Positions 28,686 to 34,390 of a stretch of DNA of 34,482 bases are shown one piece after another. The notes beneath the pieces were generated by a model. It was not told the DNA's origin. It was given only the letters and a program-made list of their open reading frames with translations, and did not search any database. The stretch is from Candidatus Omnitrophota bacterium. GTDB taxonomy: Bacteria; Omnitrophota; Gorgyraeia; Zapsychrales; Fredricksoniimonadaceae. How positions within the stretch are numbered: the stretch's first letter is position 1; each line of letters opens with the position of its first letter. The position numbers and the translations under genes are program-made. The stretch spans positions 1-34,482 of the forward strand of contig CAJARJ010000004.1 of the NCBI GenBank assembly GCA_903944345.1. The letters are read 5' to 3'.

Positions 28686-29477
28686 ATGCGGAGCGTGACC
28701 TCTACGCATCGCCCGTTATTCTGGCTGGGTGGGGCTTTTGCCGCAGGGATAGTTGTTTTGGGAGAAAAGCCTGCTTTCTGGCCGTTACTGGTTGGCGGCA
28801 TGGCCGTTTTTTCGCTTGCCAGTGCAGTCGTCTTTTTTCGTTTACGGTCTTCATCTATAGTATTTTTGCTGTTGGCGGTTTTTTGTGCGGGAGGGTTGTG
28901 GTATCGCCATGTCAGTATTTTGACCCCGGCTCATATTAGCGTCTGGCTTGGGCGGGGAAAAGAAGCGTGTACTGTCCGGGGCATTGTTTTGTCGTATGTG
29001 AAGGCGGGATCTTCCGGTATCATTCCCCGCAGTACGTTTATGCTGCAAGCGCAGTCTGTCTGCCGGATGGGAGAATGCCGGAGTGCCGTTGGCACGGTTC
29101 TGGTCAATCTTTTTGTTCCGGTAGATTTTTCCTCCGGAGACGAGGTTGTTGTGCGTGGCAAGTTGCATCGGCCTGGAGTTTTTGGTCCGAGTGCTCGCAG
29201 CTCTTATAGAGATATTCTCAGGAACAAGGGGATCGAAGTTTGTCTAAGCGTCAGGAAGGCGGACCGGCCGCTTTTGACGCGTCGGGCGTCTTTATGGTCA
29301 CTGCCTGCGGCGGCCCAGAGAATGCGCAAGCACTCCGCCCGGCTTTATGAACGCTATTTGCCGCCGGAAGAAGCCGGGCTTATGAAGGCTTTTATGCTGG
29401 GGATGCGGGAAAATATTCCCGCGCATGTTTATCGCCTTTTTCGTGATACCGGGACGGCGCACGTCTTACCAGCTTAA
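28686..29477 (+). pseudogene. comEC: comEC N-terminal fragment, interrupted
   Basis: The first 264 codons encode the N-terminus of a ComEC/Rec2 DNA-uptake channel: membrane helices near residues 10-65, the beta-rich OB-like domain (ACTVRGIVLSY through DEVVVRGKLHRPG) and the start of the competence domain (LPPEEAGLMKAFMLGMRENIPAHVYRLFRDTGTAHVL). In intact ComEC the GTAH-x-L motif continues into SGLH and many membrane helices, normally for several hundred more residues. Here the frame stops three codons after that motif, exactly where base composition changes. The ATG at 28686 has AGGTGAG six bases upstream; an in-frame GTG lies at 28677. An insertion or recombination seems likely, and an assembly join cannot be excluded. 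The missing C-terminal part is not found in the window. Confidence 0.85.
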
Positions 29478-29496
29478 TACACGAAATCGCCTAAAA

Positions 29497-29886
29497 TTGA
29501 GCTTTAAAGCTTCATTACCTGATGAAAATAAAGAGGTTAAGAAAATAGCGAGTGGGAAGAGATTTGTCAGCTCCTATGCCAGTATTCCGCCTAAAATGGC
29601 AGATAAATTGACTGCTTTAGCAAAGAAGCTGAAGGTGACAGAATCCGAGGCTTTGAGAAAGATTCTTGATAAATATTTCAAGGACATTGAAAAGAAGGGG
29701 TTGCCTTACGAGCCGTTAAGGAAGACCCCGCCTGTTGGACTAAAGATGATTCCCCGGACTATTGGCAGGGAGCAGGCAATTAAGCTTCGGGAGCTTTCAA
29801 GGAAGACCGGCAGGAAGATGAGCGAGTTGATTAGGGAAGCTGTGGAGATGAGGGTTGACTACATCTTGAAGGATATGGAAAGTTAG
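29497..29886 (+). CDS. tandem ribbon-helix-helix-like DNA-binding protein, start uncertain
   Basis: This protein has about 129 residues if it starts at the TTG at 29497. It holds two similar units: FVSSYASIPPKMADKLTALAK, then KVTESEALRKILDKYF (first), and MIPRTIGREQAIKLRELSR, then TGRKMSELIREAVEMRV (second). Each fits a short strand followed by two helices as in CopG/MetJ/Arc ribbon-helix-helix regulators, so one chain may supply both halves of a dimer. No ATG or ribosome site lies at the beginning, and the open frame runs back into the comEC fragment. The true N-terminus may therefore have been lost at the junction. It could regulate the three-gene operon that follows; a palindrome at 29994-30008 lies between them. 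Confidence 0.55.
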   Translation: MSFKASLPDENKEVKKIASGKRFVSSYASIPPKMADKLTALAKKLKVTESEALRKILDKYFKDIEKKGLPYEPLRKTPPVGLKMIPRTIGREQAIKLRELSRKTGRKMSELIREAVEMRVDYILKDMES

Positions 29887-30068: not shown

Positions 30069-30764
30069 ATGAAAAAAATGCTTCTTTTGAATGATAAAGC
30101 TATTCCAGATTTTCTTCAATTTATTAAGTTAACAAAAGAACAGCTTCATGAGTTGCATTCTTTTCTGAGAAGAAAAGGGTTTGAAATTGGGATAGAAAGT
30201 TGTTGGGAGCTAGGCACTCTTCTAGGAGTTCAAAGCAGAGAAGCAATTGATTTGTTAACAATTTCTCAATTCCTTTTCGACCAAGTGCAAAAATTTAATT
30301 TTACAAATGAGGAATTGGTAACAGCTATACAAGAAGCTATACAAAATAATGGTCAAAGTGCGGATGCTATAAAAGTATTTGAGGCTCAACGAGAAGATTA
30401 TATAGCTTTGTTGAGAGACCCCGTCATTCAGGAAGGTATAAAAATTCGTGACCTTCAGTCGGGAATTATTAAATATGCCAGTGATTTTAAGTCTTTTTGT
30501 GATTACAGACCGTTATTTAGTGCAGATAGAAAAGAAATAAAAGGCTTTGTTCCCGCTATCTTAGTGCGTATTAGGACAAAAGATGATTTCGGAGAAAAAC
30601 AAGATATTATTTTTCAGTTAAACGAAGATTCTCTAAATGAACTAATAGAATTTACGACAGACATTAAGAAAAAATTAACTACGTTGAAGAAGTATGAGGG
30701 AGAGAAGATAAAGATTATTGGATGTTTGGGAGAGTACAAGGGCACTAATGTCGAGTCCAAGTAG
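30069..30764 (+). CDS. unknown protein, first gene of the MBL operon
   Basis: This is a 231-residue cytoplasmic protein with no signal or membrane segment and no family I recognise. The first 100 residues are helical (LTKEQLHELHSFLRR, then EELVTAIQEAI). The C-terminal part alternates strands and a long helix (FVPAILVRIRTKDDF, IIFQLNEDSLNELIEFTTDIKKKL), an arrangement seen in small partner or immunity-like proteins, though this is only a resemblance. GGAGG sits eight bases before the ATG. The next gene starts about 20 bases after the stop, and the third overlaps the second, so the three are almost certainly one operon. AT-rich codon use marks it as part of the island. Confidence 0.75.
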   Translation: MKKMLLLNDKAIPDFLQFIKLTKEQLHELHSFLRRKGFEIGIESCWELGTLLGVQSREAIDLLTISQFLFDQVQKFNFTNEELVTAIQEAIQNNGQSADAIKVFEAQREDYIALLRDPVIQEGIKIRDLQSGIIKYASDFKSFCDYRPLFSADRKEIKGFVPAILVRIRTKDDFGEKQDIIFQLNEDSLNELIEFTTDIKKKLTTLKKYEGEKIKIIGCLGEYKGTNVESK

Positions 30765-30785
30765 TAATATTTTAGGAGTGTAAAG

Positions 30786-31340
30786 ATGCCGGATGTGATG
30801 GAATATAAGAAGACAGAATTATTTCCAGCGAGACGCGGTTCTGTAAAAGATTTCCAGAGGTCAAGATTCTCGGTTGATGACACCTCTTCTGACGTTCCGA
30901 AAACTTTTAATACTGACACAAGTCTCTTAGTGGCATTAATTGATTCTTTGGAGGAAACTCAGTCAGAATCAGCCAGCCCAATTGAGAAAGAATTGTTGTA
31001 TAAAAAAGTCAAAGAGTTGTTAAAGAAGTTGAGCCAAGAAAAGACTGTTTTACGGAAAGAGTATTATGATGGATTGGTAAGAGAAGTTTATGAAAATTCT
31101 GCTCGCGTTGAAATCGCTCGTAACAACGGGACTATTAGAAGAGATTTGTTTCCGTATTCGGTTTTTAAGAATGGGATACCTCAGGCTGGCGATGCTATAC
31201 GTTATGCAGCCATACAGTATGATAATGGGGAATATGGCGGAGAGATAGAAATTAAAGGGCCTGCAAAATTGAGTATGGATAATGTGTCGAATTTAGAATC
31301 ATTGATGGATAGTCTTTGGAAAAGGCTTAATAAAAAGTGA
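30786..31340 (+). CDS. unknown protein, second gene of the MBL operon
   Basis: This is a 184-residue cytoplasmic protein. Residues 1-60 look disordered and are rich in S, T and charged residues. A helical hairpin follows (about 64-92, IEKELLYKKVKELLKKLSQEK). A small beta-rich domain closes the protein, with REVYENSARVEI, RRDLFPYSVF and GDAIRYAAIQYDNGEYGGEIEI. No catalytic motif is visible, and I do not recognise the family. AGGAGTG lies before the ATG. The stop overlaps the GTG of the metallo-hydrolase gene (GTGA), so the two are translationally coupled, which suggests their products form a complex. Confidence 0.75.
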   Translation: MPDVMEYKKTELFPARRGSVKDFQRSRFSVDDTSSDVPKTFNTDTSLLVALIDSLEETQSESASPIEKELLYKKVKELLKKLSQEKTVLRKEYYDGLVREVYENSARVEIARNNGTIRRDLFPYSVFKNGIPQAGDAIRYAAIQYDNGEYGGEIEIKGPAKLSMDNVSNLESLMDSLWKRLNKK

Positions 31341-32449
31341 TTAGAATTCACGTCGTTGAATGTGGCAATGGCGATACGATTCTTATTGAGTTCCCAAATG
31401 GGAAATTTGGGTTGGTTGATTGCAATCTTTATTCATCTGCTTGCCGAGAAACAGGTTCCTGCCGTACTTATAATTATCTTTTAAGTGCAATCAAAAATAA
31501 AAAACTTTCATTTGTTTGTTTGACGCATTTTCATGAAGACCATTTCACGGGAATGGCAGATATTCTTGATTATTATGAAGAAGATATGGAAATGTATATT
31601 GATTGCGGGAGAGTTTTTCTTGATGGCATTTTGAATACTAAATATGCAATTGATTATTGTACTAACGGTTTGAATAATAAAAACAATGAGTTAAAACGGA
31701 TATGCGACAAAGTAACTCAGATTGAAAGGGCTGGAAAGAAGAAAAGTTTTTATACAGATTTAAGTTTTGAGGTAATGAACAATTCTGCTCCTATTTTGCC
31801 GCTTGATTTAGGAAAAGGAGTTTCAGTAAAGATACTGCTTCCCTCTAGATATTCTATGAGTGCTTTCTCCAGATATCTAAGATGGAAATCTTTCTTGTGT
31901 AGACAAAGAGCCGATAATCCATCTCGTTTCGTCAGTAATATTAGTTACAATGACATTTCTTTGATGTTATTAATAGAATATCAGAAAACAAAAATCTTTC
32001 TTTGTGGAGACACGTCAAGACGCGGATGGAGTTATTTATTAAAAAATGAGGAAAATATCGCGGCAAATTTTGTAAAGGTAAGTCACCATGGTGCTAATAG
32101 TGGGAATCATCCAGCAATATGGGATAGAATAAGTCCGCAAGGCAGAGCTGTTGCTGTAATATCAGCAGATGGACAGAAACATCCTAGTCAGGAACTTTTG
32201 AATGAAATAAGACGAAAAGCGAAAGTATTTTGCACTAATATATCGAAACATTGTGATGATTCAAGGGGTGATATTTTTTCTGAATCAATAGACAGTGTAT
32301 ATATGATGGGTGACGAGATTGTAGATGTATCTTGTAAGGAGGCGTCCTTACTAAGTAATAAATGTTACGGAACAATGGTTTTCGATATAGATAACGAAGG
32401 TTGTGTTGGTTTGAACTGGTCAGAACATCAACGAGCAAATTGTTGTTAG
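31337..32449 (+). CDS. ComEC-type metallo-beta-lactamase-fold hydrolase (first)
   Basis: This 370-residue soluble hydrolase resembles the C-terminal MBL domain of ComEC/Rec2 without its membrane part. It has the metal-binding H64-x-H66-x-D68-H69 (THFHEDH), a GDTSRRGW aspartate that would bridge the metals, and H250-H251 in VSHHGANSG, with SADGQKHPSQELLNEI downstream. Such domains usually cleave phosphodiester bonds in nucleic acids or nucleotides. The opening IRIHVVECGNGDTILIEF fits stand-alone members of the group. It starts with GTG overlapping the previous stop. About 80 extra residues between the third and fourth motifs and the CC tail set it apart from the second hydrolase. It is cytoplasmic. 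The substrate is unknown; a defence role is an inference from its context. Confidence 0.85.
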   Translation: MIRIHVVECGNGDTILIEFPNGKFGLVDCNLYSSACRETGSCRTYNYLLSAIKNKKLSFVCLTHFHEDHFTGMADILDYYEEDMEMYIDCGRVFLDGILNTKYAIDYCTNGLNNKNNELKRICDKVTQIERAGKKKSFYTDLSFEVMNNSAPILPLDLGKGVSVKILLPSRYSMSAFSRYLRWKSFLCRQRADNPSRFVSNISYNDISLMLLIEYQKTKIFLCGDTSRRGWSYLLKNEENIAANFVKVSHHGANSGNHPAIWDRISPQGRAVAVISADGQKHPSQELLNEIRRKAKVFCTNISKHCDDSRGDIFSESIDSVYMMGDEIVDVSCKEASLLSNKCYGTMVFDIDNEGCVGLNWSEHQRANCC

Positions 32450-32497: not shown

Positions 32498-32746
32498 TTA
32501 GTTTTTAGCTTCATTCAACTGGACAGCAGTTTTATCATCAAACAACGAATCACAGCTTAGGCAGTAAAAGACACCATGAACAGGCAGGACTTCCTGTTTT
32601 AGCGGCTCATCGCTGAAAATAAGTGAACAGTTCGGCATCTTGTCGTAAGACCCGTCAGCTTCGCACCACCCGGAAACCTCAGAAATGTTCTCACTTCCAC
32701 AATTTTTGCATGTCTTAATTGATATAGTATCAAATTCTTGACTCAT
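32498..32746 (-). CDS. small zinc-ribbon protein
   Basis: This is an 82-residue protein on the minus strand. It has C13-K-N-C16 and C62-L-S-C65 knuckles plus C28 and C40, so it probably binds one zinc ion, perhaps two. AAAGGAGC seven bases before the ATG is a strong ribosome site, which makes this a real gene. It converges with the first hydrolase gene and diverges from the second hydrolase unit. No family was recognised; a nucleic-acid or protein-binding role is plausible. Confidence 0.7.
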   Translation of the reverse strand: MSQEFDTISIKTCKNCGSENISEVSGWCEADGSYDKMPNCSLIFSDEPLKQEVLPVHGVFYCLSCDSLFDDKTAVQLNEAKN

Positions 32747-33014: not shown

Positions 33015-34109
33015 ATGGGATACGAAGTTGATTTTATGCCAGTTGGGGAAGGCAAGCGTGGCGGAGATGCAATTTCTTTACGATACGGCAATCTTAATGG
33101 CGACAGAAAAGAACAAATTGTCGTAGTGATTGATGGCGGCACAAAGGAGTCCGGTGAGAAGTTGGTAGCGAATATTAACCAGTGGTATAAAACAAACGAA
33201 GTGGATTATGCTGTGTCCACACATTTACATGCTGACCATTCATCTGGACTTTCAGTTGTTTTAGAGAAAATGAAAGTAAAGAAGTTGTTAATGCATCGTC
33301 CTTGGAATCATGCGTCGGATATCAAAAATTTCTTTCAGAATGGCAGGTTGACCGTAACCGGCCTTAAGGATAGCTTAAAGGCATCGCTTGAAAATTCGTG
33401 TGAGCTAGAAAAAATCGCTCAGCGGAAAGGAATACCGATTGTTGAGCCATTTTCTGACAACGCCGGAGTTATTGGCGATTCGTTAGTAGTGCTAAGTCCT
33501 AGCGTAAAATTTTATGAGGCGTTATTACCACATTACGTTGAGACTCCTGAGGCTAAAGAGCCTGTCGGAGTGTTTGAAAAATTTTATGAAGGGGCTAAAG
33601 AAGCAGTAAGGTGGCTTCAGGAAAACTGGGGAATTGAGACACTTAAAGACCCCGAAGAGAACAAAGTTAATGCTGAAAATAATTCTAGCGTTGTGCTCTT
33701 GTTGCGGGTTGACGGTAACCAAATCCTTTTTACAGGAGATGCTGGTGTTGAGGCATTGAATGAAGCGATTGCAAAAGCTTCCTCACTAGGAATTGATTTA
33801 AGCAAAGTTTCGCGTATACAAATACCGCATCATGGGAGCAAACATAATGTTGGGCCTACAATCTTAAACTACCTTATTGGGCCAAAGAATAACGAGGAAA
33901 AGAAACTTAAAACTGTTTATATTAGCGTGCCTAAAGAAGGAGACCCAAAGCATCCGTCGAGGAAAGTGGTAAATGCTCTGAAACGTCGCGGAGCAGATGT
34001 CTACGTGACTAAAGGAAACACATTGCATCATTGGATTGATGCTCCGGAGCGTGCCGGATGGAATTCTGCTGTTCCATTGGGTTTTTACAATGAAGTTGAA
34101 GAGGATTAG
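33015..34109 (+). CDS. ComEC-type metallo-beta-lactamase-fold hydrolase (second)
   Basis: This 364-residue soluble MBL-fold protein carries H70-L-H72-A-D74-H75 (THLHADH), an FTGDAG aspartate, and H272-H273 in IPHHGSKHN, then KHPSRKVVNALKRRG. It belongs to the same ComEC-like hydrolase group as the first but is clearly diverged, with a different insertion (about residues 100-215). It should bind two metal ions and probably hydrolyses phosphodiester bonds. The ATG at 33015 is preceded by AAAGGAG; an out-of-frame ATG at 33011 is ignored. No signal or membrane segment is present. The lipase-like frame starts 11 bases after the stop, so the two form a pair. Expression may be gated by the terminator just upstream. 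Confidence 0.85.
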   Translation: MGYEVDFMPVGEGKRGGDAISLRYGNLNGDRKEQIVVVIDGGTKESGEKLVANINQWYKTNEVDYAVSTHLHADHSSGLSVVLEKMKVKKLLMHRPWNHASDIKNFFQNGRLTVTGLKDSLKASLENSCELEKIAQRKGIPIVEPFSDNAGVIGDSLVVLSPSVKFYEALLPHYVETPEAKEPVGVFEKFYEGAKEAVRWLQENWGIETLKDPEENKVNAENNSSVVLLLRVDGNQILFTGDAGVEALNEAIAKASSLGIDLSKVSRIQIPHHGSKHNVGPTILNYLIGPKNNEEKKLKTVYISVPKEGDPKHPSRKVVNALKRRGADVYVTKGNTLHHWIDAPERAGWNSAVPLGFYNEVEED

Positions 34110-34120
34110 CGAGGTCAAGG

Positions 34121-34390
34121 ATGGCTACATTGCAGGCTAATATTCAGTACTTTCAATATCCTTCATTATTAACACCGCCAATCTTGCGTGCCGCATACAG
34201 CGATAGGACGGCATGGCTTATGGCTGAGATGTCTCGGCTTGCTTACATCAAGTTTGAGACTTCCCCAGAGAATATGGGATTACTTAGTGCAAGCTTAAAC
34301 ACGGCAGGATTCCAGCTTGTTTCTACTTTTAACGGCACTCGTGTTAGCGGGATTTTAAATACAGCCACTCCTGGTGATGCTGTTTTCTGA
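34121..34390 (+). CDS. N-terminal fragment of a lipase class 3-like protein
   Basis: This 89-residue frame reads like the beginning of a class 3 lipase (alpha/beta hydrolase). YSDRTAWLMAEMSRLAYIKF and TAGFQLVSTFNGTRVSG match the usual helix and following strand, and GDAVF sits where AVxxFRGT normally follows. A TGA stops it before the GxSxG nucleophile region, so it cannot be catalytic as written. The downstream bases in the same frame (VRMVLRAVRRFLD) do not continue as a lipase. It may be broken by frameshift or recombination, or affected by sequence error near the window end. It probably pairs with the hydrolase upstream. Confidence 0.5.
   Translation: MATLQANIQYFQYPSLLTPPILRAAYSDRTAWLMAEMSRLAYIKFETSPENMGLLSASLNTAGFQLVSTFNGTRVSGILNTATPGDAVF

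Follow-up and report, generated by a model that had tools for sequence, protein, structure and literature searches.

The ComEC/Rec2 protein combines an OB fold (DUF4131), a channel domain and a metallo-β-lactamase (MBL) nuclease domain, and the roles of its OB and nuclease parts were first proposed in an earlier study (PMC5031224). In the ComEC domain of M. glycerini, the residues H598, D602, H603 and D700 are required for Mn-dependent DNase activity, a mutation in most of the metal ligands leaves hardly any nuclease activity, and the substitutions D600A and S728A lower the rate about 5-fold and about 3-fold, respectively (PMC12455585). The ComEC nuclease domain alone binds DNA very weakly, and the addition of an OB fold to the same chain raises the rate about 7-fold (PMC12455585). 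Several bacterial immune systems have recently been found to share ComEC-like MBL nucleases as effectors, which are activated by a partner protease; in Hachiman and AVAST defence such MBL hydrolases have been proven to be DNases, and in HamM the nuclease is gated by insertions (PMC12799240). In another protein family that is relevant here, the ten human COMMD proteins form a closed ring (PMC10187114). Here, we describe a three-gene locus (the trio) from a Candidatus Omnitrophota bacterium and read it as one member of a rare and widely scattered module, which consists of an exchangeable first protein, a protein with a predicted OB fold and an MBL of the ComEC type and which would act as a nuclease system in defence or conflict; we give this reading about an even chance.

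The window, i.e., the whole stretch of DNA that was analysed (34,482 nt), corresponds to a complete contig (C4) of a draft genome that comprises 22 contigs and 2.18 Mb. The three genes of the trio all lie on the plus strand and encode P1 (gene A, 30069-30764, 231 aa, ATG start), P2 (gene B, 30786-31340, 184 aa, ATG start) and the MBL (gene C, 31337-32449, 370 aa, GTG start). The genes for P1 and P2 are separated by 21 nt, those for P2 and the MBL overlap by 4 nt (GTGA, 31337-31340), and clear ribosome-binding sites are present 5' of P1 (GGAGG) and P2 (AGGAG). The G+C contents are 33.5 % for P1, 38.2 % for P2 and 34.9 % for the MBL gene, compared with about 50-54 % for the host genes.

The MBL matches only Lactamase_B families in Pfam, and the Competence channel (PF03772) is absent from its chain. 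Its ligand set consists of D28, the motif THFHEDH (H64, H66, D68 and H69), the motif GD (D225) and the motif SHHG (H250 and H251). Among 12 aligned family members, i.e., the window protein and 11 relatives, H64, D68, H69, D225, H250 and H251 are invariant, and position 66 is either H or D. The ligands of the window protein correspond to H598, D600, D602, H603, D700 and H725 of the M. glycerini domain, and the nuclease-like reading is strengthened because the metal ligands that are critical in ComEC are conserved; the position of S728 is occupied by Ala in the window protein and by Ser in the other 11 members. A profile built from these 12 real sequences identified the ComEC nuclease domain 9IC4 as the closest solved relative (E=1.8e-22), and the same profile also matched the choline-phosphate esterase Pce/CbpE (E=3.5e-8). 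Partial matches to LmuA, RTasMBL, PDC-M48B and Avs1a were obtained in PADLOC, and those to ComEC, Avs1a and 6A-MBL in NCBIfam were all far under the cut-offs. Between HxHxDH and GD the family has about 120-156 residues, although some of the ligands picked automatically are doubtful, and a short soluble protein of the ComEC-like kind has 93; a conserved C-terminal extension is common to the family. Based on these comparisons, the MBL is classified as a soluble ComEC-type hydrolase and predicted to be a Mn-dependent nuclease, for which nuclease chemistry is likely.

P2 is composed of an N-terminal part, a predicted OB fold at residues ~87-160 and a C-terminal helix. An AlphaFold2 model of residues 62-184 (123 aa), computed from a 10-row alignment that included nine gene-B relatives, had a mean pLDDT of 88.2 and showed five strands with one flanking helix at each end. 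The top Foldseek matches of this model were mostly OB folds with E values of ~0.01-0.1 (best 0.011), including the cold-shock protein CRHSP-24, the S1-like domain of DBC1, a telomere end-binding protein, eIF2-alpha and aIF1A at E values of ~0.01-0.07, so that the C-terminal part is assigned as a predicted OB fold with moderate confidence. P2 gave no family match. The comparison of P2 with the gene-B proteins by hhalign reached E=0.11, and the gene-B HMM scored P2 at E=1.3, yet this was the best of 2,117 ORF segments besides two training members. P2 is grouped with the other gene-B proteins by its length, a coherent model and the gene position and layout common to at least 19 loci; by sequence alone the grouping is weak. 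A PADLOC match of P2 to ZorA (E=0.0013) was rejected, since it likely reflects a coiled coil and was absent from the two gene-B relatives scanned.

P1 has a helical N-terminal part and a C-terminal COMM-like domain, with the motif D-x-R-P-x-F at residues 145-150. Its relatives are encoded by the upstream genes of the MBL loci in Planctomycetes (30 % identity at L042, 18 % at L035 and 17 % at L041); P1 aligned to them by hhalign with E=1.5e-9, and the motif D-x-R-P-x-F is held in common. A profile of the four sequences matched PDB 9Q6A, deposited as "COMMD-like protein" MBK5214510, with E=2.8e-7, and after the addition of four further relatives from Planctomycete genomes the match improved to E=1.5e-15 over profile positions 4-215, nearly the full length; the COMM-like part of the family profile by itself gave 3.8e-12. 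P1 therefore belongs to a family of bacterial COMMD-like proteins, one of which has been solved (9Q6A/9Q6C/9Q6D), as judged from these profile alignments across nearly its full length. It is diverged from MBK5214510, with R-P in place of the R-M of the solved protein, and its gene stands in an operon with an OB-MBL pair. A tie to the eukaryotic COMMDs is suggested by the depositor's name and by sub-threshold Pfam matches: the COMM_domain (PF07258) was found at residues 161-193 of P1 with E=0.047 and 14.3 bits, below the gathering threshold of 22.4 bits, and weak matches were seen in two of eight P1 relatives, while the P1-family profile obtained no direct match to eukaryotic COMMDs. With COMMD1-10 of the Commander/CCC complex, P1 shares the helical N-terminal part followed by a C-terminal COMM-like domain; the eukaryotic set forms a hetero-decamer with CCDC22/93 (PMC10187114). 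The AlphaFold model of P1 from the single sequence had a pLDDT of 35.5, and the literature search found no paper on bacterial COMMD-like proteins.

COMMD-like genes without an adjoining MBL gene were also found, in four genomes (G399, G445, G567 and G675). These genes (L057:6018-6704, L058:5582-6286, L060:2389-3048, L061:2411-3139 and L059:6717-7979) are mostly the first in short operons, and their varied downstream partners overlap with them or lie within a few nt; at L059 (G675), a gene for a DUF6079 ATPase is located further downstream on the same strand. From these few loci, COMMD-like proteins may be a general component of the first slot of such operons.

An earlier note, made from the letters of the window, had described a tightly packed operon with a GTGA overlap, the base composition of the surrounding island and an MBL that keeps all visible metal ligands, and the values above agree with it on all three points. 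Its statement that the two partners match nothing had to be given up, as P1 belongs to the COMMD-like family of 9Q6A and P2 is predicted to contain an OB fold.

The trio recurs in distant phyla. When 84,980 species genomes were scanned with the MBL as the sole bait, at least 16 loci were confirmed, and ten of these (L033-L042) as well as a locus on a viral contig (L031) have the order A-B-MBL, with all genes on one strand and overlapping or nearly abutting where their starts were readable. Profile searches in 392 genomes of the phylum of G398 (Planctomycetes), 398 genomes of the phylum of G747 (Pseudomonadota) and ten genomes already reached added L063, L064, L065, L067, L068, L069, L071 and L072, all A-B-MBL. 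In total, at least 19 further loci, or at least 20 with the window, have constantly the order A-B-C on a single strand, not counting L070 (broken or truncated), the distant L043-L045 and the partial L046-L048. The hosts are Planctomycetes, Verrucomicrobia, Gastranaerophilales, Alphaproteobacteria and other Pseudomonadota, and the distribution is patchy, with 3/392 genomes of the Planctomycetes and 6/398 of the Pseudomonadota positive, the genomes at the centre of each search included. Gene A is exchanged between loci: it encodes a COMMD-like protein in the window, L035, L041 and L042, and other protein types, of one or more families, in most other loci. The identities of the parts and their recurrence are well supported and are held with high confidence, that of P2 with less. 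A Lichenibacterium genome carries two A-B-MBL copies (L072, G745:C107:454519-455469, and L036), which differ considerably in their MBLs and in the type of gene A.

The search patterns were widened by alignments with invented variant rows, which served only for choosing search words; each match of a widened pattern was reproduced by tblastn with the actual protein of the window, and its later assessment used genuine sequences only. The initial searches for close relatives gave no match for the MBL in genomes and viral contigs, for P1 and P2 in viral contigs and plasmids, for P1 in phages, or for the DNA of the trio in E. coli. P1 and P2 were absent from 384 genomes of their own phylum, where weak matches (L011-L016 and L020-L024) were judged to be due to chance, L020 lying within an apparent dihydroorotate dehydrogenase electron-transfer subunit. 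Plasmid proteins of Geobacillus annotated as 'ComEC/Rec2' proved to be soluble MBLs with a nearby DUF3006 gene and were hence rejected as trio members. As far as tested, the trio is uncatalogued in Pfam, NCBIfam, PADLOC and PHROGs, and no model in them covers P1 or P2; likewise, no convincing model from Pfam, NCBIfam or PADLOC was obtained for A or B in the relatives tested.

An integrative element, inserted in comEC and split over two contigs, carries the trio as cargo. The 5' part of the host comEC (28677..~29468-29477, plus strand), encoding the DUF4131 OB domain (Pfam E=2.7e-13), is interrupted by the element at about 29465-29475. The rest of the gene, encoding the channel domain, is found on contig C2 (L029:10930-11685, minus strand; Pfam Competence E=1.4e-44) and ends without an MBL domain. 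This fragment adjoins a large serine recombinase with Resolvase, Recombinase and Zn_ribbon_recom domains (L029:10930-13280 region), and the part of the element on C2 also encodes a 768-aa protein with an ATPase-like motif, a Replic_Relax protein and a small protein read as a MerR-like helix-turn-helix protein that gave no Pfam match. At the left end of the element on C4, a gene of uncertain start (29470..29886, plus strand) encodes a ribbon-helix-helix regulator of the CopG/Arc type, which matches RHH_3 in two stretches (Pfam 4.7e-12) and a transcriptional repressor in PHROG (2.7e-9). C4 and C2 both terminate within the element, so the element is incomplete in the assembly; it covers at least ~5 kb of C4 and 8 kb of C2, with the middle missing. 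The G+C content of the element on C2 is 42 %, and that of the trio is lower than that of the rest of the element. The trio is regarded as mobile because of the split comEC, the large serine recombinase, the Replic_Relax protein and the shift in G+C. The possibility that the MBL is a piece broken off the neighbouring comEC was rejected on account of the C2 fragment, which ends before any such domain, and of the membership of the MBL in the trio family across phyla.

The pair of OB-fold protein and MBL recalls the soluble halves of ComEC minus the channel. With ComEC/Rec2, the trio shares an OB fold, here a predicted one, an MBL of the same subfamily and the conserved metal ligands, whereas its two counterparts are separate soluble proteins with no channel and an extra COMMD-like partner, and its MBL differs by the spacing of HxHxDH to GD, longer than in the short soluble relative, and by the C-terminal extension. 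The trypsin-MBL modules of Hachiman, AVAST, Lamassu and DRT (HamM and Avs1a; PMC12799240) resemble the trio in having a ComEC-like MBL with dedicated partners and a mobile, patchy occurrence. In the trio, however, the MBL gene is the last and not upstream, and no trypsin-like protease gene is found just downstream of it, the next genes encoding a zinc-ribbon protein and a second MBL; the score of the MBL against the Avs1a model was far too low, at 45 bits compared with 420 bits. The 6A-MBL anti-phage system (NCBIfam NF058524) likewise has an MBL-fold enzyme of ~350 aa, to which the window protein has a significant partial match (E=6.1e-9), but the score of 35.5 bits (at most 48 bits in the relatives) is far from the cut-off of 220, and neither P1 nor P2 matched in NCBIfam. 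The match of the LmuA model of Lamassu to the MBL (E=2.7e-18) reflects the shared fold, and no PADLOC partner (LmuB) was found among P1, P2 and the neighbouring genes. By these comparisons, the module is one more form of the effector modules built on a ComEC-like MBL, with a novel partner for control. The rare recurrence of its gene order in distant bacteria suggests an undescribed system of defence type or of gene conflict.

In the proposed mechanism, the MBL would act as a two-metal-ion DNase, and the OB fold of P2 would bind nucleic acid and deliver it to the MBL, as the OB fold of ComEC does for its nuclease domain. A complex of P2 and the MBL is a natural proposal, because the two parts of ComEC are here separate proteins encoded by overlapping genes. 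P1, probably oligomeric via its COMM-like domain, would sense a trigger or restrain the P2-MBL pair until infection or the entry of foreign DNA, a role as sensor or brake that we infer because the first gene varies between loci and B and C are retained. The outcome would be the degradation of the invading DNA, or of all DNA. A function in defence is plausible because of the mobility and rarity of the trio, the PDC-M48B cargo next door and the proven DNase activity of such MBLs in other immunity (PMC12799240); we judge a defence or conflict role of the trio to be evenly balanced between true and false. Somewhat below this stands our tentative proposal of a novel class, in which a constant pair of an OB-fold protein and a ComEC-type MBL nuclease works under an exchangeable first protein, in one lineage a COMMD-like oligomer, so that relatives of human Commander subunits would have sensory or regulatory roles in conflict operons of bacteria. 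Such a module would pair a known kind of immune nuclease with a different control layer, and it would give the COMMD-like proteins of bacteria, whose eukaryotic relatives form a family with an unclear origin and function, a testable genetic context in which they are coupled to a downstream gene, here the OB-MBL pair.

The conflict system suggested by the earlier note finds agreement in the soluble ComEC-type MBL (9IC4) with dedicated partners, in its mobile and variable setting within comEC and in a unit structure that recurs with an exchanged first gene, to which the PDC-M48B neighbour adds circumstantially; no system in PADLOC or NCBIfam matched, and the anti-phage role remains as conjectural as before. 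The note would have dropped the system idea if the trio never recurred, and this condition fails, as the trio was found in fixed order in distant phyla. The flanks of the relatives (~5-9 kb read) contained mostly ordinary genes or transposases and no clear defence islands.

Several other explanations have to be weighed against the defence or conflict reading. The MBL could be a small-molecule hydrolase (a phosphodiesterase or esterase) in an operon that handles a signal or metabolite, with the OB fold as a scaffold; MBL folds have many substrates and Pce/CbpE is matched by the profile, but this is unlikely given the far better scores of the ComEC nuclease domains (1.8e-22 vs 3.5e-8), and nucleic acid is indicated by the OB partner and by the complete set of ComEC ligands. 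The transport of the trio by a recombinase-bearing element with further cargo, together with its tight translational coupling, would agree with a stability or addiction module, in which a toxic MBL nuclease is held by P1/P2 and freed on loss of the element. An effector as the last of three genes behind an exchangeable first gene is unlike the usual toxin-antitoxin layout, however, and many relatives are on chromosomal contigs without an evident element, so that we regard an addiction module as quite unlikely.

We allow only a small chance that the trio controls the entry of foreign DNA, as a soluble counterpart of the OB and nuclease parts of ComEC that serves the element which destroyed comEC. 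The pairing of domains mirrors ComEC (PMC5031224, PMC12455585) and the element sits in comEC, but P1, P2 and the MBL show no membrane part, the MBL does not stem from the disrupted gene, and the flanks read at the other trio loci showed no link to comEC. That the three genes are a chance cluster of unrelated accessory genes would fit the weak homology of P2 by sequence and the P1-like genes found away from MBLs, and is nevertheless barely credible in view of the A-B-MBL order in at least 20 loci of distant phyla.

Further genes of the element follow the trio in the window. A small zinc-ribbon-like protein (32498..32746, minus strand), recognised by Cys pairs in the translation and weak Pfam zinc-ribbon matches, is encoded between the trio and the gene of a second, different MBL hydrolase (33015..34109, plus strand), which belongs to the PADLOC candidate family PDC-M48B (PDLC04676, E=1.7e-95) and is thereby a candidate for defence, starts 0.6 kb from the trio and is neighbouring cargo outside it. 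Full-length relatives of this second MBL with 33-38 % identity are present on plasmids. It is followed at 34121-34390 by an ORF of 89 aa, with a TGA stop near the contig end, that may be truncated; by eye it resembles the start of a class-3 lipase, and it gave no database match. On a plasmid of Burkholderia glumae (L026:783-6071), a PDC-M48B relative stands in a row of four genes, the others of which encode a further metallohydrolase, a ThiF-family adenylyltransferase and a hypothetical protein.
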